From a virus, in IMG/VR virus record IMGVR_UViG_3300044837_000044, positions 1 through 45,414 of that record: a DNA stretch of 45,414 bases; one strand, 5' to 3'. Numbering within the stretch: the stretch's first letter is position 1; each line of letters begins with the position of its first letter. Made by a program: the position numbers and the translations under genes. Positions 1 to 45,414 of the stretch are shown one piece after another. Below the pieces are notes generated by a model. It worked only from the letters and a program-made list of their open reading frames with translations. It had not been told where the DNA came from and ran no database searches.

Positions 1-127
1 GTTAAGCTACGGCCGGAATAGGCTGGCCGGATCAGGCCGCCCCCTTACTGTGGCTGGAAAGAGGTTGGGGGGCCCAAGAGCTAAAGCTAAGAGGGCAAGG
101 TTGTAGGGTCTGGCCAATACCCCCCCC
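1..127. repeat. Direct terminal repeat (copy 1 of 2)
   Basis: Bases 1-127 are identical to 45288-45414, and identity stops exactly at 127 (both copies end in a run of eight C). This makes the contig circular with a 45,287-bp unit. The length equals a common maximal k-mer of short-read assemblers, so an assembly overlap from a circular or circularly permuted genome is the simplest reading. A real 127-bp terminal redundancy is possible but less likely. Confidence 0.97.
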
Positions 128-436
128 TCCCCCCAAGCCTGAAAAGCTCAAGTGGAAGTGAGAGATGTTGACCAGACCAAGAGGCGTCTGGCACCCATAC
201 AACGCCTGGGTAGGCTACCCCCCCAGCCAGGACACGAAGGGTTCCTGACTGGCGCACCCGCAACCGCGGAAAGCTCCCCCGTCCTATCGGCTTGCCGGTT
301 ATGACCCCGGGGCTCTGGACGATACGTGTGGTTATGTCCCCTGTGGCAGAATTCTTCCGGCTACTAGCCTCGGAAGGTATCTCATGGGTTCCTTTGCTGA
401 CCACCAAACCCGGGCTATAGTCCCCGAACGACTTCA
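1..436 (-). ncRNA. Candidate large structured non-coding RNA (about 450 nt, runs on into 45275-45287)
   Basis: A GC-rich region without a convincing gene, flanked on the minus strand by a strong promoter (443-471) and an intrinsic terminator (45275-45301), predicting an RNA of about 450 nt. Local hairpins visible by eye: CTTCCG 354-359 with CGGAAG 371-376; AACCG 262-266 with CGGTT 296-300 enclosing AAGC 271-274 with GCTT 290-293; GCCAG 226-230 with CTGGC 249-253; GGGTA 208-212 with TACCC 216-220; CCAGAC 172-177 with GTCTGG 186-191. The loop of the last (182-185) can also pair with 204-207, a possible pseudoknot. A 116-codon minus ORF (87-437, GTG start) overlaps it; its use of ATA, GGG and CGG codons is unlike the phage genes, and it has no ribosome site, though leaderless translation cannot be excluded. 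I do not recognise a known RNA family. Confidence 0.55.
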
Positions 437-442
437 CCTACC

Positions 443-471
443 ATTATCCCATACTCCCTTCCCCATGTCAA
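443..471 (-). promoter_or_regulatory. Sigma-70-type promoter for the ncRNA candidate
   Basis: On the minus strand TTGACA (471-466), a 17-bp spacer and GATAAT (448-443): one of the best consensus matches in the window. Predicted start is near 436, reading leftward through the structured region and away from the terminase block. Confidence 0.75.
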
Positions 472-1380: not shown

Positions 1381-1610
1381 TGGCTGCCAAAGAAGAAGGC
1401 GAGAAGAGGCAAAAGGGATGGTATCGGTACAAGTTGCGTTTCGGAGCGACCCGTACCGGCGGCCATTACGAATGCGAGCTGATGCTACAGAAACGCGGCA
1501 AGACCAATCTCGAAGACTTCCCGCGCGAGGAAGCTGAGAACATCCTGCGGCAGATCGCTAACTACATGGCGAAGAACGCCGACTTTGCGAATCTAACCGA
1601 GGACTTTTAG
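1380..1610 (+). CDS. Small charged hypothetical protein
   Basis: 76 residues, starting at an ATG that shares one base with the GNAT stop and ending in TAG that shares one base with the terminase GTG. Lys/Glu/Arg-rich, with a predicted C-terminal helix (EEAENILRQIANYMAKN). Its position directly before the large terminase is where some phages keep the small terminase, but it is short and shows no DNA-binding motif I can see, so I leave it unnamed. Confidence 0.7.
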   Translation: MAAKEEGEKRQKGWYRYKLRFGATRTGGHYECELMLQKRGKTNLEDFPREEAENILRQIANYMAKNADFANLTEDF

Positions 1611-3199
1611 TGTCTGCCAAGAAAAATCCATCGGTATGGGTTGGCGACTACGAGGAATGGAAAAGAAATCCCTTCCCTGTAGCCGCTCATCTCCTTTTCA
1701 AGGACATGCCGCTTGAAATCTTCATTGAAGACTGGATGACCATTGAATCCACAGAAGAAGAAACCGTAGGCCAACAGGTTCCCTTCGTGCTGTGGCCGAA
1801 GCAGCGCGAGCTGTGCCGATTCATAGAAGGCCGCAAGATAGGATTCATACCCAAGGCTCGCCAGCGTGGCGGGTCAGAGATATTTGCATGCTGGGCCATT
1901 CTGGTAATGCTGCGAGAAATGAAGGCGGAAATCCTGGTGTTCTCCCGCGGCGAGGACGACGCTCGCTATTTTCTTGAGAAGCGCGTCAAGACCAAGTTGA
2001 GCGCGCTCCCGCGTATCGTCAACAACGAGGGGGAAGAATGCGTCATCTGGCCAAAGATCATTCCCGAGACGTTCAAGATCAGTACCGGCTATGGCTCTAC
2101 TATTACGGCTATCTCATCGCACCCGGATGCGGGTTCCGGCCATACCGCCCGCCTAATCATCCTGGACGAAGCCGAAAAAATCGAGGATGCCGCGGCCATT
2201 TGGACCGCTGTAAAGCCTGCCGTAGATCAAAACAAGCGCGGCCAATTATTCGCCCTATCAACGGGCCAAAAGCATGGGACTTGGTTCAAGATTTTCTTGC
2301 GTAAGATCTACGACGGAAAAGTGAAGGGTATCGAATACTTCTTTCTTCCGTGGAACGCTGATCCTACTAAGGACAAGTCATGGTATGACGAGCAGCTCAC
2401 CCAGTTCGATTCCGAAGTGGATATGCGCTGCACTTATCCCTCCGACATCGAAGACATCTTCCTGTCAAAGGAAGGAAAAGTATTTCCGCAGTTCGACAAC
2501 AAAGAAGGTGGTAGGCATGTATTCGACTTCGAGAAAAGATTCAAGCTCAGTGTCCTTTGGGGAATGGATATGTACCTTGCTTATGACCCGGGTTTTGATC
2601 CCCATCCTGCTGCTTTTTTATTGTGCCTTTATGATAGGTATAATGATATACTGTACGTTATGGATGAAATTGTCCTCGTCGGTGTCGAAATCACTGAGAT
2701 GGGCAAAAAGATTAAGAACTTGGTTCAAAGTAAACCTATTCGTCCAAAGAAAGCGGTGGTTGATACTTATGCGAACAGAAAAGGAGGGGCTGGTGGCAAA
2801 ATCACGGAGCGCAAGATTCTTAACGAGGTTACTGGAATCAATTTTGTGGGTGCCAACAAAGCAGATGCGAATGGATCACGTCAACTTGTATCTCGACGCC
2901 TCTCGGATAACAAGATCGTCATCCATCCACGATGCAAAAAAACCCGGTCGCAGATGGAAGATTGGGTATGGGACTCGAACGGGAAGCCGGTAGACGAAGA
3001 GGATGATACCATAGATGATCTTCGTTACATTTGTCAAGTTCTTCCGAACAAGGCCACGAAGATTGCAGAGCCTCCAAAGGATCCGAAGCCGTACTCGGCA
3101 GAGGCCCGCAGGGCTAGAATGAAGGCCCGCACGGAGCGGGAGGCGATGCTGGCGCGTGAATCCGGCGTAAAAGACAACTATTCCTGGCAAGCTGGGTAA
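1610..3199 (+). CDS. terL: Terminase large subunit (packaging ATPase-nuclease)
   Basis: 529 residues, the normal size for TerL. It packages phage DNA into the prohead through the portal and cuts the concatemer. The ATPase half shows a degenerate Walker A (PKARQRGGSE, 81-90), Walker B with catalytic acid (LIILDEAEK, 182-190) and a coupling motif ALSTG (215-219). The nuclease half has the RNase H-like acidic residues: D326 in YDPG, D385 in VVDTY and D469/D470 in DDTIDDLRY. The GTG start overlaps the previous stop by one base, which fixes it. Downstream is an exonuclease-like gene with its own AAGGAG site. Confidence 0.95.
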   Translation: MSAKKNPSVWVGDYEEWKRNPFPVAAHLLFKDMPLEIFIEDWMTIESTEEETVGQQVPFVLWPKQRELCRFIEGRKIGFIPKARQRGGSEIFACWAILVMLREMKAEILVFSRGEDDARYFLEKRVKTKLSALPRIVNNEGEECVIWPKIIPETFKISTGYGSTITAISSHPDAGSGHTARLIILDEAEKIEDAAAIWTAVKPAVDQNKRGQLFALSTGQKHGTWFKIFLRKIYDGKVKGIEYFFLPWNADPTKDKSWYDEQLTQFDSEVDMRCTYPSDIEDIFLSKEGKVFPQFDNKEGGRHVFDFEKRFKLSVLWGMDMYLAYDPGFDPHPAAFLLCLYDRYNDILYVMDEIVLVGVEITEMGKKIKNLVQSKPIRPKKAVVDTYANRKGGAGGKITERKILNEVTGINFVGANKADANGSRQLVSRRLSDNKIVIHPRCKKTRSQMEDWVWDSNGKPVDEEDDTIDDLRYICQVLPNKATKIAEPPKDPKPYSAEARRARMKARTEREAMLARESGVKDNYSWQAG

Positions 3200-3682: not shown

Positions 3683-3711
3683 TTGACTCTCTCCTGCGGC
3701 CCTGATATAAT
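3683..3711 (+). promoter_or_regulatory. Sigma-70-type promoter
   Basis: TTGACT (3683-3688), 17-bp spacer, perfect TATAAT (3706-3711). It lies directly after the exonuclease stop and would start a message about 10 bases before the AGGAGG of the 3729 gene. Confidence 0.85.
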
Positions 3712-3728: not shown

Positions 3729-3887
3729 ATGAAATCCATTAAGAATATAGGTATAGTTGAGAAAATATTGAACCACTTTGGCTATTACAAGCCGGTGGTG
3801 AAGAAAACCCGCAAAGTGCGCACACCGCGCGCCATAAATGTCGAACAAGGTAATTCCGTACCCCCAGTCGAACCATTGTCCCCTTGA
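3729..3887 (+). CDS. Small basic hypothetical protein
   Basis: 52 residues with a perfect AGGAGG (3719-3724) four bases before the ATG, under its own promoter. Lys/Arg-rich centre (KKTRKVRTPRA) and Pro-rich tail. The -35 box of the next promoter overlaps its stop codon. Strong promoter plus strong ribosome site suggest an abundant small protein; no family recognised. Confidence 0.7.
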   Translation: MKSIKNIGIVEKILNHFGYYKPVVKKTRKVRTPRAINVEQGNSVPPVEPLSP

Positions 3888-3912
3888 CTTAATCCCGTCT
3901 TTCCGGGATAAT
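3884..3912 (+). promoter_or_regulatory. Sigma-70-type promoter
   Basis: TTGACT (3884-3889), 17-bp spacer, GATAAT (3907-3912), a second copy of the same promoter type 201 bp after the first. It reads into the Com-like gene at 3953. Confidence 0.8.
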
Positions 3913-4415: not shown

Positions 4416-4814
4416 ATGGAAGAGATCCGCAAGCTGCAAGGCACGGGGGTCTCTTCCCTCTTATATTTTGGCTTGACTCTTCCTCCCGGACATGAGATGC
4501 TGGGATTCGAGGACGAGAACGGCGTCTTTTATTCGGTAGAACAACTCAAAGCCATCGAATGGCAGGAGAACAAAATGGAAAGTTGCCAAAAGGCAGTAAA
4601 CAGCCTCGAACAAGCAATCGCCGGAATAGGCCAGATTGCTAAAAATCCGGATCGCGTTATCAAGCGTATGTACCGCCTCGGAGATATGACTATTGCCATC
4701 GGAAGCGATGATACCGTTTGGTATCTGTCCGAAGGCGACCGCATTGTGGGCCCTTCGCATTGGAAGAAGATGCGTGATATGGCCTGCCCCGGACTTCCGC
4801 AGGGGGATTTCTAA
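4416..4814 (+). CDS. Hypothetical protein
   Basis: 132 residues. A central helix (MESCQKAVNSLEQAIAGIG) is followed by a beta-rich half with many Gly, Asp and Trp residues (IAIGSDDTVWYLSEGDRIVG). I do not recognise a family. The TAA shares one base with the ATG of the first glycosyltransferase (TAATG), so it is coupled to that gene. Confidence 0.65.
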   Translation: MEEIRKLQGTGVSSLLYFGLTLPPGHEMLGFEDENGVFYSVEQLKAIEWQENKMESCQKAVNSLEQAIAGIGQIAKNPDRVIKRMYRLGDMTIAIGSDDTVWYLSEGDRIVGPSHWKKMRDMACPGLPQGDF

Positions 4815-5791
4815 TGTTGTCCGTCGTCGCCATCTGTAAAAATGAACTCTCGAACGTCGACGGTTTTATCTCGTCCTGGTCTGACGTGGCTGACGAAATA
4901 ATCATCGTGGATACTGGTTCCAAAGACGGAACCCTTGCGGCCTTGCGCGCCAATGAAAATTATAGCACGAAATTACGAGTTTACGAGATGGAGTGGGTTC
5001 AGGACTTCTCCGCTGCCCGAAATTATGCCGCCTCCAATGCGCTCGGAACCTGGATTCTCTGGGCTGACATGGATGACCGTGTTCACGTCGGTTCCATCCC
5101 CCGCATCCGCGAGCTGGTTCGCACGCGCGACTGCGCCTACGCTTTCCAGGTTGCTTCCGACGTCGGCAACGGAGGGTGGCATCGCTTCATGCAGGTTCGC
5201 ATGTATCCGAACCGTCCCTCCGTTAAGTTCCGAAACGTCGTCCATGAAACCCTGGACGTCTCCCTGAAGCTGGCCGATCTGCCGGTGTACAAGGAACCAG
5301 AAATCATGATTGCGCATCTCGGCTATGCCGACGAGAACGTGAAGAAACATAAGGCCATCCGGAATCTCGATCTCCTGCTGCACAATAGCGATCCGACCAC
5401 GGCCGACCAGTTCGCACAAGTCGGTGACGCCCTTTACGTCCTCGGAAAGTTCTCCGTGGGCATCGGCTATTACGAGCAGGCTGTGCGCCTGGGCGGTGAA
5501 GGTGCCGAGGAAGTCTTGGCCGAGAAACTGATCGTCGGATACCTGATGCTCGGAGCATTGGACAAGGCGAAGAAGGTTATCCATAAGCTGGACAAGTATT
5601 CCATCGCCGCCAACTACTGGCTCGGTGAAATCTTGCGAGCGGAAGGCATGCTCGCCAAGGCCAAGATGCACTTCGAGCGTGCCATCACGGGAACCCGGCA
5701 TCTGGACGTCCGCGAATGCAACGGCGATACCATGATCCTAAACTCGAAAGACCGTCTGAAGGAATTGGAGGCGTTATGCGTCCTCGCCTAA
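4814..5791 (+). CDS. Family 2 glycosyltransferase with helical-repeat tail (paralog 1)
   Basis: 325 residues. The N-terminal GT-A domain begins with VVAICKNE and the nucleotide-binding VDTGSKDGT (32-40), followed by the metal-binding D-x-D-type motif ADMDDR (84-89). The C-terminal 130 residues are helical and resemble TPR units. It should transfer a sugar from a nucleotide-sugar to an unknown acceptor, perhaps a virion protein, DNA, or host surface glycan. Placement between terminase and portal is unusual. It overlaps its paralog by 16 bases. Confidence 0.88.
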   Translation: MLSVVAICKNELSNVDGFISSWSDVADEIIIVDTGSKDGTLAALRANENYSTKLRVYEMEWVQDFSAARNYAASNALGTWILWADMDDRVHVGSIPRIRELVRTRDCAYAFQVASDVGNGGWHRFMQVRMYPNRPSVKFRNVVHETLDVSLKLADLPVYKEPEIMIAHLGYADENVKKHKAIRNLDLLLHNSDPTTADQFAQVGDALYVLGKFSVGIGYYEQAVRLGGEGAEEVLAEKLIVGYLMLGALDKAKKVIHKLDKYSIAANYWLGEILRAEGMLAKAKMHFERAITGTRHLDVRECNGDTMILNSKDRLKELEALCVLA

Positions 5792-6945
5792 GCGTCATCT
5801 CCATCTGCAAAGACGAAAAGCACAACCTGATCAAGTTCCTGTCCTCGGTCGGACTCGTCGCTGACGAGATCGTGATCGTGGACACTGGCTCCAAGGACGG
5901 CACTCCTGCGGCGCTGAAGAAGCTCGGGTTCTCCGAGAAGGGCCGCGGGCAACTGAAGCTGCGCCATTTCAAGTGGAACAACAACTTCTCCGACGCGCGC
6001 AACTTCTCGCTGCGCCATGCGACCGGCGAGTGGGTTCTCTGGATGGACTTAGACGATAGGCTTTCCGCCAGCGCCCCGCAGTACATCAACGCCCTGAAGA
6101 AGCACGATCCAATACAGGATACGAACAGCCATATCTACCCCAACTTGGCCGGGGAAGAAAAGCGCGCTTCCGCTTTCGGATTCCAGATTGCTTCGCAGAC
6201 CGAAGAGGAAGGCGCTTACGTTCGATTTATCCAGGCGCGCATGTTTCCGAACATCCGCGGAATCTCCTGGCGCAAGCCGATTCACGAATCGCTGCACGAA
6301 TCGCTGGCCGTGAAAAACGTCAACCTCGTTCCGATTCCCGAATGCGTGATCATCCATCTCGGCTACGCTGACCCGATGCTGAAGCAGCACAAGGCAATGC
6401 GCAATGCGAAGATCCTGGAGTCCTTTCACGAAGAATCCTACGAGCGCTTCTACCAGCTCGGAGACGCCTACTTCGCCATGGGAACCTACGATCTCGGCGT
6501 CATCAACTACTACCGCGCCCGCTCCTTGGCGGTCACGGACCTACAGAAAAACTCGGCCACGGAGCGTATCATCCTGGGCCGCTGCTGCATGGGCGAAATG
6601 CCTATCGCGCGTGAAGAGTATACGATGCTGCCGAGCGGCGTTCCGGAGCAGATGTTCTGGGAAGCCGAGTTTGCTTACATCGACAAGGACTACGACAAGG
6701 CTGGGCCGATCTACGAAGCCATTCTGGAAATCAAATACGAACCGCAGAGCATGAACAGCTACCTGGATGCCTACAAGGCCCGCGCCATCCAAGTTCTGAC
6801 CGCGATGCAGGAAAAATTCAACAAAGAAAGCGAGGCTGCCCATGAAGAAGGGAGTATTCGGACCGAAGGAAATGCCGTTGGACTCAGTGAGGGGAACCAA
6901 ACCTCCGAAACCGCAGAAGCGGGATCCGGAAGTAAGGATCCGTAA
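5776..6945 (+). CDS. Family 2 glycosyltransferase with helical-repeat tail (paralog 2)
   Basis: 389 residues from ATG 5776, chosen because GGAGG lies just upstream and residues 5-43 then align with paralog 1 from its first residues. It has VDTGSKDGT (35-43) and MDLDDR (90-95), then a TPR-like helical tail and a disordered Ser/Glu/Gly-rich C-terminus. The last 104 bases overlap another ORF in a different frame (6842). The pair looks like a tandem duplication with divergence; two enzymes acting in sequence on one glycan are possible. Confidence 0.88.
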   Translation: MRPRLSVISICKDEKHNLIKFLSSVGLVADEIVIVDTGSKDGTPAALKKLGFSEKGRGQLKLRHFKWNNNFSDARNFSLRHATGEWVLWMDLDDRLSASAPQYINALKKHDPIQDTNSHIYPNLAGEEKRASAFGFQIASQTEEEGAYVRFIQARMFPNIRGISWRKPIHESLHESLAVKNVNLVPIPECVIIHLGYADPMLKQHKAMRNAKILESFHEESYERFYQLGDAYFAMGTYDLGVINYYRARSLAVTDLQKNSATERIILGRCCMGEMPIAREEYTMLPSGVPEQMFWEAEFAYIDKDYDKAGPIYEAILEIKYEPQSMNSYLDAYKARAIQVLTAMQEKFNKESEAAHEEGSIRTEGNAVGLSEGNQTSETAEAGSGSKDP

Positions 6946-10035: not shown

Positions 10036-10064
10036 TTGACAAAATTCCGTTTTCACCTCATAAT
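10036..10064 (+). promoter_or_regulatory. Sigma-70-type promoter for scaffold and capsid
   Basis: TTGACA (10036-10041), 17-bp spacer, CATAAT (10059-10064). It lies between the three-way-junction element and the scaffold start and would drive scaffold and capsid up to the terminator at 12447. Confidence 0.8.
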
Positions 10065-31385: not shown

Positions 31386-31461
31386 TGGTTGCCGCTATGG
31401 GTCTCGAACCCAATCCCCCCGAGACAAGATCCCGGTGTACGGCCTGCTATACGAAGCGGCA
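31386..31461 (-). tRNA. tRNA-Lys (anticodon CTT), CCA encoded
   Basis: Full cloverleaf on the minus strand, 76 nt. Acceptor TGCCGCT with AGCGGCA, discriminator A and encoded CCA (31388-31386). D-arm GTA/TAC with GG in the loop; anticodon stem CCGGG/CTCGG with loop ATCTTGT (anticodon CTT); T-arm TTGGG, loop TTCGAGA, CCCAT with one T-T mismatch at its base. Position 37 is G, not the A usual for Lys tRNAs, so a tRNA search should confirm the identity. Confidence 0.85.
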
Positions 31462-31464
31462 GCG

Positions 31465-31481
31465 GGTGGGCTCGAACCACC
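31465..31481 (-). tRNA. Orphan tRNA T-arm (fragment)
   Basis: GGTGG, loop TTCGAGC, CCACC on the minus strand: a perfect T-arm with the B-box consensus. Only three bases separate it from the 5' end of tRNA-Lys, so its acceptor strand would overlap that tRNA. I see no matching D-arm or anticodon arm within 90 bases. Likely a tRNA remnant; chance is possible. Confidence 0.4.
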
Positions 31482-31575
31482 AGAGACAACGTAAAGCCTT
31501 TCTTGTGCGCAATCATACTCCGGCTCCTTGTCATCCCTAACCGTCCACTAAAGAAGACGGCTACGCCCCACGACT

Positions 31576-31761
31576 TTAAAGATCAGCGCCAGGGAGTCGA
31601 ACCCCGAACCTCCCATGCAGCCTCGGCCCAGCTCTTGGGTGTGCCGCATCGGTGAAGCTACCAATTGCTTCCAGCGCTGCAAAAGTTGCCGGTCTTTCCC
31701 GGCTGTCATCCGTTACATATTGAACGGCTAAGTCATCGACTGGTTGTTTTTCGGTTATCAC
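31576..31761 (-). CDS. Possible small protein overlapping the tRNA-like element
   Basis: 61 codons from GTG 31761, with AAGGG eight bases upstream. The first half (residues 1-38) looks like a normal protein; the second half is the tRNA-like element read in frame (Arg/Pro/Gly-rich), so it is either a truncated gene fused to tRNA sequence or not coding at all. Confidence 0.25.
   Translation of the reverse strand: MITEKQPVDDLAVQYVTDDSRERPATFAALEAIGSFTDAAHPRAGPRLHGRFGVRLPGADL
31582..31680 (-). tRNA. tRNA-like element with an enlarged anticodon region
   Basis: Minus strand, 99 nt. Acceptor GCAGCGC (31680-31674) with GCGCTGA (31589-31583), six of seven pairs; T8; D-arm GAAG/CTTC with loop holding TTGG; T-arm CGGGG, loop TTCGACT, CCCTG. 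Between D-arm and T-arm there are 47 bases in place of about 23. They contain a 7-bp stem ATGCGGC / GCTGCAT enclosing a CCCA/TGGG hairpin, not a normal anticodon arm. It may be a decayed tRNA, one with an insertion, or a tRNA mimic. A small ORF (31576-31761) overlaps it. Confidence 0.45.
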
Positions 31762-31826
31762 TCCTTCACCCTTCCATGGTGGCGAAGTACCCCGGGTCTG
31801 CACAATCGACTTGGACCAATTTAGTT

Positions 31827-31914
31827 GAAGGCGTCCTGTCCAGTTAGACGAGTCCGCGGACAGCTTACCACAAGGGGAGGCCGCGGTACGGGATTCGAAC
31901 CCGCATTTCCTTCC
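31827..31914 (-). tRNA. tRNA halves in permuted order (3' half before 5' half)
   Basis: On the minus strand a 3' half comes first: GAAGG (31913-31909), T-arm GCGGG, loop TTCGAAT, CCCGT, then acceptor strand ACCGCGG (31887-31881). Twenty-one bases later a 5' half follows: CCGCGGA (31859-31853), a canonical D-arm (GTCT/GGAC, loop with A14, GG, A21) and CCTTC (31831-31827). The two acceptor strands pair at six of seven positions and GAAGG pairs with CCTTC over five, so together they could form most of a tRNA. No loop with U33 is evident, so function is unproven. It abuts the SSB-like stop. Confidence 0.4.
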
Positions 31915-31917
31915 TAT

Positions 31918-32535
31918 TTAGAAGGGGAGATCGTCCTCCGGAGGCGGGGCTGGATACGTCGGCCCGGCTTGTGGCGCTGCGCCTGTTGGAGGCTGGCCAG
32001 CCGGTGGCTGGTAAGTCTGCGCCGGTTGCCCGCCGTATCCTCCGCCCTGGTACGCCCCGGGCTGTTGCTGGCCGGGAGGTGGCTGCTGATAGCCTCCGCG
32101 GTTCCCGTAGTTCTGCTGGGGAGGGGCTTGGTATCCTTGCTGGGAGCCATTCTGGTAGCCGCCCTGGGGCTGGCCCTGGCGGTATCCGCCGGGAGGGGGC
32201 TGCTGGTAATTTCCTTGCTGGCCGCCCTGCTGTTCGTATCCCGGTGCGTCCTGGCGTTCCCGGCCGAGCTTCAGGGTGATCATTCCGGGTCCGCGAGTGC
32301 TTTGCTTATCCCAGCCGACCAGTTTAACCTTCTCCCCGGCCTTCACGTCGAACTCGAAGATGAAGTAGCCGTCGTAATCCGGAGCATTCTGGTTCCGCTT
32401 GTCGCTCTTGATGAAGAGGGTTCCCTGGCCGGGCTTGGGCTCGAAGCCGCCTTGACGGCCACCGCCTCCTCCGCCGCCGTAACCTCCCTGTCCGCCACCG
32501 TTTCCGCCTCTGTATCCGCCGTTTCCGTATCCCAT
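31918..32535 (-). CDS. SSB-like protein with acidic DDLPF tip
   Basis: 205 residues from ATG 32535, with AAGGAAAGACAG before it. Residues 1-30 are Gly-rich; 35-93 form a short core (GTLFIKSDKRNQ, PDYDGYFIFEF, VKLVGWDKQS, GMITLKL) resembling the DUF736 fold, not a classical SSB OB-fold; then about 100 residues of Gln/Gly/Pro-rich linker and the acidic end EDDLPF, the tip by which bacterial SSBs recruit repair proteins. It probably coats single-stranded phage DNA and calls host factors. Confidence 0.75.
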   Translation of the reverse strand: MGYGNGGYRGGNGGGQGGYGGGGGGGRQGGFEPKPGQGTLFIKSDKRNQNAPDYDGYFIFEFDVKAGEKVKLVGWDKQSTRGPGMITLKLGRERQDAPGYEQQGGQQGNYQQPPPGGYRQGQPQGGYQNGSQQGYQAPPQQNYGNRGGYQQPPPGQQQPGAYQGGGYGGQPAQTYQPPAGQPPTGAAPQAGPTYPAPPPEDDLPF

Positions 32536-42530: not shown

Positions 42531-42683
42531 TTACTTCCGGATCCGGCGGGTGGGAACTACGGCGATCCGCTTGTCGGCCGCAAATTCTACTTGGGTTACC
42601 GCCCCGTTTTCTTCTATGATTCTGGCAGCCTTGAAACCGTTTCCCACTTTGACTGTGCAGGGTTTTTTGTTTTCGTTTTTCAT
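42531..42683 (-). CDS. Small basic protein (50 aa)
   Basis: 50 residues from ATG 42683 with GAGG seven bases upstream; overlaps the hexapeptide-repeat gene stop. Small beta-barrel-like pattern (VKVGNGFKAARIIEENGAV) and a basic end. Typical of short phage proteins; no family. Confidence 0.62.
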   Translation of the reverse strand: MKNENKKPCTVKVGNGFKAARIIEENGAVTQVEFAADKRIAVVPTRRIRK

Positions 42684-43333
42684 TTTCTTACCTCATTTTG
42701 TTTGCTGAAAAGTTTAATGTATTCAAAATACTCGGAAATTTCTTCTTCCGTATACCCTGAATCTTTCCCGATCTCCTTGTATCTCTCCATCCATTCCGTA
42801 ATGGGGAAAACTCGGCACCCTATCCCCAGGAATCCTTTCTTAGCCCAGTAACAAGCATGTTTTGATCCTTGGATGTATAGCGGCGTTTTTTTCCAATCAT
42901 CCCCGTAAATCAGAGCATTCCCGGAAATCAGAGCATGCCCGTACACCTGAGCATCCCCGTACACCCAAGCGTCCCCGGACACCCGAGCGTCCCCGGACAC
43001 CCGAGCGTTCCCGAACACCCAAGCGTTCCCGTACACCTGAGCGTTCCCGGACACCTGAGCGTTCCCGGACACCAAAGCGTTCCCGGAAATCCGAGCATCC
43101 CCGAACACCTGAGCATCCCCGTACACCCAAGCGTCCCCGGACACCCGAGCGTCCCCGAACACCCGAGCGTTCCCGTACACCTGAGCGTTCCCGGACACAA
43201 TTGCATCCGGCCCTAAATAAGCTTCGGCATCGACAAGGGCTGTTTTCTTTTTCCAGCCGTCGCCTTTAGTATGGCGCTCCCATTCTTCCGGTTTTCCTCC
43301 TAAAATAGCTATTAATTGTTCTATAGTTTTCAT
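42680..43333 (-). CDS. Left-handed beta-helix (hexapeptide repeat) protein
   Basis: 217 residues. Residues 45-146 are 17 near-perfect hexapeptides of the form [VI]-[SYF]-G-[ND]-A-x, which should coil into a short left-handed parallel beta-helix like polymer-forming and acyltransferase domains. No catalytic His is placed as in hexapeptide acyltransferases. The flanks (1-40 and 150-217) are charged and helical. Might act as a structural or binding prism, even a DNA mimic because of many Asp, but that is speculation. Confidence 0.8.
   Translation of the reverse strand: MKTIEQLIAILGGKPEEWERHTKGDGWKKKTALVDAEAYLGPDAIVSGNAQVYGNARVFGDARVSGDAWVYGDAQVFGDARISGNALVSGNAQVSGNAQVYGNAWVFGNARVSGDARVSGDAWVYGDAQVYGHALISGNALIYGDDWKKTPLYIQGSKHACYWAKKGFLGIGCRVFPITEWMERYKEIGKDSGYTEEEISEYFEYIKLFSKQNEVRK
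42896..43201 (-). repeat. 18-bp tandem repeat array (17 copies) coding for hexapeptides
   Basis: Seventeen imperfect 18-bp units inside the hexapeptide gene. Variation is mostly at coding positions that change S/Y/F, N/D and the sixth residue. Such arrays expand and contract by slippage or recombination, so copy number may differ between relatives. Confidence 0.9.
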
Positions 43334-44175: not shown

Positions 44176-44309
44176 TATACAATCTCCTTCCAAGTGAAGT
44201 TATACGGATGCTCTTGTTTCATGCAATAGTTGTAGGCGGCGCGCATGCTGCCGACCGTCTTCACAAGGGCACCGGTCTTTACTTCTAGGATTGCTATCTT
44301 GTTTTTCAT
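44175..44309 (-). CDS. Small protein, first gene of the minus-strand block
   Basis: 44 residues from ATG 44309 with GAGAG just upstream, 24 bases after the predicted start of the promoter at 44340. Mixed fold (KIAILEVKTGALVKTVGSMR). Being first in the early block, it may act early on the host. No family recognised. Confidence 0.6.
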   Translation of the reverse strand: MKNKIAILEVKTGALVKTVGSMRAAYNYCMKQEHPYNFTWKEIV

Positions 44310-44339
44310 ACTCTCTTATATACGCAAGGGCCATGCCAT

Positions 44340-44368
44340 TGTATAACTACTAATATTAGTGCGTTTAA
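44340..44368 (-). promoter_or_regulatory. Early promoter with palindromic operator in the spacer
   Basis: Minus strand TTAAAC (44368-44363), 17-bp spacer, TATACA (44345-44340). The spacer contains the palindrome ACTAATATTAGT (44349-44360), identical to that in the promoter at 41954. Likely start of the long minus-strand block. Confidence 0.7.
44349..44360. promoter_or_regulatory. Operator palindrome, copy 2 (copy 1 at 41961-41972)
   Basis: Perfect 12-bp palindrome ACTAATATTAGT. The two copies share 14 bases (TACTAATATTAGTG, read on the minus strand at 41961 and the plus strand at 44349), lie in promoter spacers, and occur nowhere else that I noticed. This is what a dimeric regulator site looks like. 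Confidence 0.7.
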
Positions 44369-44637
44369 GCCAATCAGGATCCTAACAGTGTCAGGATTTC
44401 TTACACTAAATACTCAAATAAAACCTAAGTGCATATTAATCAAAGACTTAAGTGTGTATAATTTTCCGACATTGAAAGGTAATTCTTTACAGTGTGATCT
44501 CAACATGCGCGCCGCGCGCTTCCCTTTTCGTTTGAGTTACACCCTTTGGGTAAGATTGGGATTTCTTGAGGGGAAACGATTGGAGCCACTCCATTCCATT
44601 AACCTACCAATTCAGTATGTTAACCATTCTCTTACCC
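44369..44637. other. Divergent control region without genes
   Basis: An AT-rich stretch with no credible gene. It contains the direct repeat TCAGGAT at 44374-44380 and 44391-44397 around an imperfect inverted repeat (44379-44397), a repeated ACAGTGT (near 44386 and 44490), two related half-sites (CTAAGTGCATATTAAT near 44425 and TTAAGTGTGTATAATT near 44449) and a GCGCGCCGCGCGC tract near 44509. A 93-codon ORF here (44388-44669) has non-phage-like codon use. Candidate for operators or a replication origin. Confidence 0.5.
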
Positions 44638-44667
44638 TTGACATATTCGGGTGGATTATGCTACCAT
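44638..44667 (+). promoter_or_regulatory. Extended -10 promoter for the possible small terminase gene
   Basis: TTGACA (44638-44643), 18-bp spacer, TACCAT (44662-44667) with an upstream TG in extended -10 position (44659-44660). The expected start falls at 44674, the A of the ATG, and no ribosome site precedes that ATG, so the message is probably leaderless. Confidence 0.6.
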
Positions 44668-44673
44668 AAGACT

Positions 44674-45147
44674 ATGGAAGATTTAGCCTTACAACCGAAT
44701 GAAAGTAAACCTACCATTTTAGTAGGAAATAGACCAGGATTCAAGAATCAGGGAGTGATTAAGGCTGCAGCCCGGCAGATTGTCCTGGAAGCCTTGACCG
44801 CGTTTAAGGGCGGGAAGATAGGTAAAAAGGGCCTATTGGTTAAGGCAATGGACGAGTTAAACAAGGCTTTAGACCAAAAAGAGGTGGAAGGGAAGCCATT
44901 GGAGAACGTGGCTATAAGGGCGCGCAAGGATTGGGCTATTGAACAGGTGCTAAAACTGGCGAATGGGATGACCAAGGACGACAAAGCATCAGGCTTGGAA
45001 GAACTCCTAAAGGGTGGCTCTAACGTCCAAATCAACTTTAACACCCATTTCTCCCAAAGGTCAGGCTCTGACCGGCAGACTTTGCCTACCGTCAGCTTTG
45101 GACCAGCCCAGGAAGGCTTTACCCCTCCCCCCGGTGCCGGGGGCTAG
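44674..45147 (+). CDS. Possible terminase small subunit
   Basis: 157 residues from ATG 44674, seven bases after a -10 box. The frame is open to 44566, but the upstream part is not protein-like. Residues 25-110 are helical and basic at first (GVIKAAARQIVLEALTAF, then KGLLVKAMDELNKAL), followed by charged helices and a Gly/Pro-rich tail. The size and place, the last plus-strand gene before the non-coding region and terminase operon, fit a small terminase; no family signature is seen. It could also be another DNA-binding protein. Confidence 0.45.
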   Translation: MEDLALQPNESKPTILVGNRPGFKNQGVIKAAARQIVLEALTAFKGGKIGKKGLLVKAMDELNKALDQKEVEGKPLENVAIRARKDWAIEQVLKLANGMTKDDKASGLEELLKGGSNVQINFNTHFSQRSGSDRQTLPTVSFGPAQEGFTPPPGAGG

Positions 45148-45287
45148 GCTGCCTCGGACTGAGGCTGGGGTGTGGTCCCACAAGTCGATACCGGATCAGG
45201 TTGGGCCCCAACAGGCTCCCCCACCCCGCATAGCTTGAAACTTCGCAAGGCTGGGAAGAAGCCGGGCCCGGCCTAAAAAGACCGTGG
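45148..45287. other. Non-coding GC-rich region after the possible small terminase; possible packaging or structured site
   Basis: No gene is seen between 45148 and the junction. It holds a GCCTC/GAGGC hairpin (45151-45165), a GTTGG/CCAAC hairpin near 45200-45212, and a perfect 12-bp palindrome GCCGGGCCCGGC at 45261-45272. The 10-mer CCGGATCAGG occurs at 45191-45200 and again at 27-36, 123 bp further round the circle. Lying between a possible small terminase gene and the large terminase, it could contain a pac or cos signal; this is inference from position. Confidence 0.4.
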
Positions 45288-45301
45288 GTTAAGCTACGGC
45301 C
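45275..45301 (-). terminator. Intrinsic terminator of the ncRNA candidate (spans the contig junction)
   Basis: On the minus strand a 6-bp stem (GGCCGT / ACGGTC, one G-U pair; plus-strand arms 45280-45285 and 45296-45301) with a 10-nt loop is followed directly by five T (plus-strand A run 45275-45279). Because 45288-45301 equals 1-14, the same element lies at the left contig end. It is the only stem plus T-run I see on this strand in the region. Confidence 0.6.
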
Positions 45302-45414
45302 GGAATAGGCTGGCCGGATCAGGCCGCCCCCTTACTGTGGCTGGAAAGAGGTTGGGGGGCCCAAGAGCTAAAGCTAAGAGGGCAAGGTTGTAGGGTCTGG
45401 CCAATACCCCCCCC
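45288..45414. repeat. Direct terminal repeat (copy 2 of 2)
   Basis: Exact copy of bases 1-127. Reading across it joins the 3' end of the window to base 1, so features cut by the contig end (the ncRNA candidate and its terminator) can be read in full. Confidence 0.97.

Follow-up and report, generated by a model that had tools for sequence, protein, structure and literature searches.

A near-consensus promoter that points into a stretch without genes raises the question of what, if anything, is made from it. Such a promoter lies near the start of a 45414-base virus record (IMG/VR IMGVR_UViG_3300044837_000044), which was analysed at its full length and is called the window here. In the original prediction, positions 1-471 were read as a stand-alone structured RNA on the minus strand, dense in perfect hairpins, with its own promoter and intrinsic terminator and possibly with a role in packaging, host takeover or virion assembly; it was proposed to join the contig ends, fold the minus strand, search Rfam and collect relatives.

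On joining the ends, bases 1-127 were found to be identical to 45288-45414, which confirms circularity, and the record closes to a circle of 45287 bases. The contig ends on the final base of a C8 run (120-127, 45407-45414), and 127 is a length at which the word size of assemblers is commonly capped. Since the break falls at the C8 run and the repeat is exactly 127 bases long, the break is most simply a homopolymer artefact; the repeat looks like an assembler overlap, and a physical genome end at this point was rejected on the same grounds.

The gap, its promoter and its neighbours

On the closed circle, a gap of about 740 bases (45148-45287 plus 1-600) lies between a rightward gene and the rightward late block. 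The features of the locus are as follows.

443-471, minus: sigma-70-type promoter, TTGACA-17-GATAAT, the -10 extended by a preceding TG, 11/12 matches
566-594, plus: weaker rightward promoter candidate, TTGCCG-17-TATCAT, 9/12, just before the gene at 601
530-555, no strand: imperfect palindrome TGTTCGGAGTTCGCGAACAAGGAACA with the perfect core GTTCGCGAAC, from self-comparison (77% over 26 bases), between two divergent promoters
1-436, minus: first part of the presumed non-coding transcript, crossing the junction to 45275 or beyond; negative codon scores, no above-threshold Rfam match, fold energy equal to that of shuffles
45275-45287, minus: claimed terminator, here its U tract and the 3' stem half (5' half at about 1-14), -6.0 to -7.4 kcal/mol; weak
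45148-45287, no strand: remainder of the non-coding gap by codon scores, between the end of the convergent gene (44674-45147) and the junction; no above-threshold Rfam match
44674-45147, plus: convergent gene, 157 aa, family unassigned, 'small terminase' by position only
44638-44667, plus: the convergent gene's own promoter, 10/12
1610-3199, plus: gene for the large terminase, in the rightward block (PHROGs terminase large subunit, 1.6e-16)

The promoter on the minus strand was borne out. Under a first-order Markov model, 0.25 sites with at least 11/12 matches are expected per whole genome on both strands, and three were seen: 471-443 on the minus strand and 3683-3711 on the plus strand, in or beside gaps, and one at 10036 on the plus strand, inside a gene. 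The site at 471-443 is the best minus-strand site genome-wide and, within the gap, the only one on that strand with at least 9/12. Its sequence is real, and it supplies the promoter of its own that a small-RNA gene is expected to have. Of the strong sigma-70-like promoters on the plus strand, 3683-3711 (11/12) and 3884-3912 (10/12) each directly precede a small gene within the rightward block.

The gap was also found to be non-coding, another mark of a small-RNA gene, by codon scores and by family searches. Codon scores were negative in nearly every window of the gap in all six frames, against a reference in which nearly all accepted genes score above 0 and mostly at 0.1-0.45 bits per codon. 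The 116-codon open reading frame at 87-437 on the minus strand scored -0.234 bits per codon and that at 415-786, on the same strand, -0.143; neither was matched in a PHROGs search and the former had no Pfam match, in agreement with the earlier view that no convincing protein is present. Coding scores were obtained for the small rightward genes at 601-771, 764-970 and 967-1380. The non-coding nature of the gap is thus real.

The convergent gene at 44674-45147 had no Pfam match and no PDB relative, and its single-sequence structure model was helical, at low confidence. Beyond it, the gene block from 44309 to 28308 runs leftwards, in the same direction as the promoter at 471-443. The core GTTCGCGAAC of the palindrome at 530-555 occurs once in the genome and may be part of an operator; together with the divergent promoter candidate at 566-594, the palindrome is consistent with a control region. 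A perfect 12-base palindrome is present at 45261-45272, and C/G tracts are concentrated in the gap, which holds 4 of the 11 runs of at least six bases.

Several other observations were made along the genome. Between the terminase and portal genes, two adjacent glycosyltransferase-like genes (4814-6945) share PHROG 13126 as best match, and a gene of the leftward block (42680-43333, minus) carries seven YdcK-type beta-solenoid repeat matches. Four tRNA T-arm-like motifs (GGNTCGA) were seen at 31901, 31603, 31478 and 31410, within a gene gap of 570 bases (31386-31960, minus). Only 31386-31461 was called there by ARAGORN (Lys, CTT), and a relaxed Rfam search gave no standard tRNA match. At the motif near 31603, an acceptor and a D arm seem to be present, and the anticodon region exceeds the normal length by about 24 bases; these motifs are possibly degenerate or interrupted tRNA genes.

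Folding, the claimed terminator and searches for relatives

The folding of the presumed RNA did not set it apart from shuffled sequence. The minimum free energy of 1-436 on the minus strand was -177 kcal/mol, compared with -178.1 ± 6.85 in dinucleotide shuffles (z 0.16). Nor did the dense hairpins hold up: from 436 to 45275, six perfect hairpins with stems of 5 bp or more were counted vs 4.1 ± 2.3 in dinucleotide shuffles, a count reached by 113 of 500 shuffles, and one of 6 bp or more vs 1.04; genome stretches of equal length average 0.9. The best of 54 windows of 120 nt, with two strands tested, lay at about 61-180 on the minus strand (z -3.2). Several G runs of 5 to 8 occur on this strand and can reduce its fold energy regardless of function. 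The proposed pseudoknot (172-191 with 204-207) is weak, involving four loop bases, and by our own estimate chance would give a match this short. A repeated GGGGWCATAACC motif (297-308, 330-341) is likewise estimated to be no longer than repeats that arise by chance. Because scores near zero against shuffles are also seen for some structured RNAs, the chance-level fold energy removes support for a structured RNA rather than disproving structure.

The intrinsic terminator claimed at 45275-45301 proved weak. Its stem, GGCCGU/ACGGUC with a 10-base apical region followed by U5, has an energy of -6.0 kcal/mol alone and -7.2 to -7.4 kcal/mol with tail or flanks; when the downstream (3') GGCCGGGCCCGGC is added, an alternative fold wins and the stem is displaced. 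The stem, with its 10-base apical region, was not returned by a consensus terminator scan covering loops of 3-8 only. A stop at 45275 may hence be leaky. Of the original prediction, a promoter-driven non-coding transcript from the minus strand stays plausible, while its being structured, stand-alone and equipped with its own terminator found no support in these analyses.

Rfam 15 was searched with the window, with 1-600 and with 45000-45414, up to E = 10; nothing exceeded the family thresholds, and the GOLLD, ROOL, OLE and pRNA models were all unmatched, leaving an ornate-RNA or packaging-RNA role without support. Relaxed-threshold matches to microRNAs, lncRNAs and the like, in the window, in 1-600 and across the junction, were put down to chance.

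Relatives of the RNA or of the 116-codon frame were not found at the sensitivity used, at which close relatives of the RNA would be caught and diverged ones may be missed. Word-11 blastn of the RNA region against phage and plasmid records gave none; the same was true of pattern scans of IMG/VR (terminase, open reading frame 44566-45147, portal, the 116-aa frame and the plus-strand gap frame) and of GTDB contigs (terminase and the 116-aa frame). These collections may omit records very near the window, and the absence of a relative means that none was reachable there. Exact 17-mers of the RNA occurred in nine IMG/VR contigs, where similarity stopped within 0-2 bases of the motif, and these were rejected.

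An alignment scan with the terminase gave 80 distant relatives at 24-33% identity. Both terminase and portal had only distant matches, and the phage is isolated in the collections searched. Short-word blastn of the gap against the 80 relatives gave nothing significant; a 28-base match to two genomes (L010/L011) lay at the end of an open frame and was hence taken as chance. In four of the best terminase relatives (L008, L009, L012, L014), a simple map of open reading frames has no gap of more than 200 bases immediately upstream of terminase; hence, such a gap is not shared by all members of this terminase family. In a distant portal relative (L007, MW202615.1), a 1-kb stretch at about 4625-5690 is annotated only with tiny open reading frames on both strands and is perhaps another non-coding region.

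A proposed leftward transcript and the alternative readings

The reading we tentatively prefer, at somewhat under an even chance, is that a non-coding control region separates the gene at 44674-45147 from the rightward late block, and that its promoter yields a leftward, untranslated transcript acting in cis, possibly as a read-through leader. The host-type promoter at 471-443 would fire leftwards and give an untranslated RNA of at least about 450 bases. This RNA would converge on the gene at 44674-45147 and could oppose it by antisense pairing or by polymerase collision. Read-through of the weak stop at 45275 into the leftward block is possible, and the transcript would then be a long leader for that block (44309 to 28308), ended early until antiterminated in the style of lambda pR'/6S.

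This cis reading is favoured by a promoter match well above chance, located in a gap that shows no coding signal and no more structure than its composition gives. The observed geometry agrees with it as well: the promoter points in the direction of the leftward block (44.3-28.3 kb), and on the minus strand of 44183-44674 no sigma-70-like site above 8/12 was found. The weak and displaced terminator points the same way. Against it, a read-through leader would be untranslated for about 1.4 kb, a considerable length for a phage, and an unrecognised promoter could lie in the divergent, AT-rich stretch at 44310-44673. A functional RNA, moreover, would be compatible with the absence of excess folding energy.

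It is also conceivable, if doubtful, that the gap matters as DNA, for example as a packaging or genome-end site near the terminase genes, and that the minus promoter yields little or nothing useful. In favour of this, the gap adjoins the packaging genes and holds the C/G tracts and the palindromes at 45261-45272 and 530-555. However, the promoter match is too good to be chance, the small-terminase label of the neighbouring gene is unsupported, and the contig break has the look of an assembler overlap, not of a physical end.

The reading of the original prediction, an independent structured small RNA that would belong to no described class and act in trans on host or virion, is judged unlikely. 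The strong isolated promoter, the long non-coding stretch and the better-than-shuffled fold at about 61-180 speak for it, and with no Rfam family above threshold such an RNA would be undescribed if structured; yet the whole transcript folds and forms hairpins at chance level, its terminator is weak, and no relative was found in phage and plasmid records or, by pattern scans, in IMG/VR or GTDB contigs. That the locus represents a new class of structured phage RNA of about 450-580 nt, so far from a single lineage, with its fold hidden by composition-driven dense pairing, is a long shot. A small protein encoded at 87-437 is highly improbable: the open frame directly follows the minus-strand promoter, but it is contradicted by its codon usage (-0.234), has no PHROGs or Pfam match and has no relative in the pattern scans of IMG/VR and GTDB contigs.

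Comparison with known RNAs

The lambda pR'/6S RNA is a leader of 194 nt. The proposed transcript would resemble it in having a strong host-type promoter, a short non-coding product and a stop that can be overridden. It differs in its length of about 450 nt vs 194, and in that the first downstream genes are about 1.4 kb off with an opposite-strand gene between; an antiterminator was not identified. The pRNA of phi29 is about 174 nt long, has a known fold and works in the phi29-type motor. The likeness here is that of a non-coding RNA gene within a phage genome; in contrast to pRNA, the present region gave no above-threshold Rfam match.

The put RNA of HK022 is described as a non-coding element that is made during early phage gene transcription and suppresses pausing and termination (PMC9378689). 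The shared property would be that of a non-coding RNA made as early phage genes are transcribed; the suppression of pausing and termination sets put apart. GOLLD and ROOL are RNAs of phages and prophages, often located near tRNA islands; for both, and for OLE, homologues show covarying structure and Rfam models exist (PMC12286853). The present RNA would be non-coding like them; unlike them, it has no Rfam match, no homologue that was found and a chance-level fold, and the one called tRNA is far off, at 31.4 kb, unlike the setting of GOLLD and ROOL.

The gap and its promoter are interesting as an orphan, in a phage without close relatives in the collections searched, and ordinary on what can be demonstrated. 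Proof of structure, which nothing here provides, would make the RNA a new class among those of phages. If the region is transcribed, it would add another non-coding phage transcript driven by a host-type promoter, in a position from which it could govern the relative timing of two opposed gene blocks.
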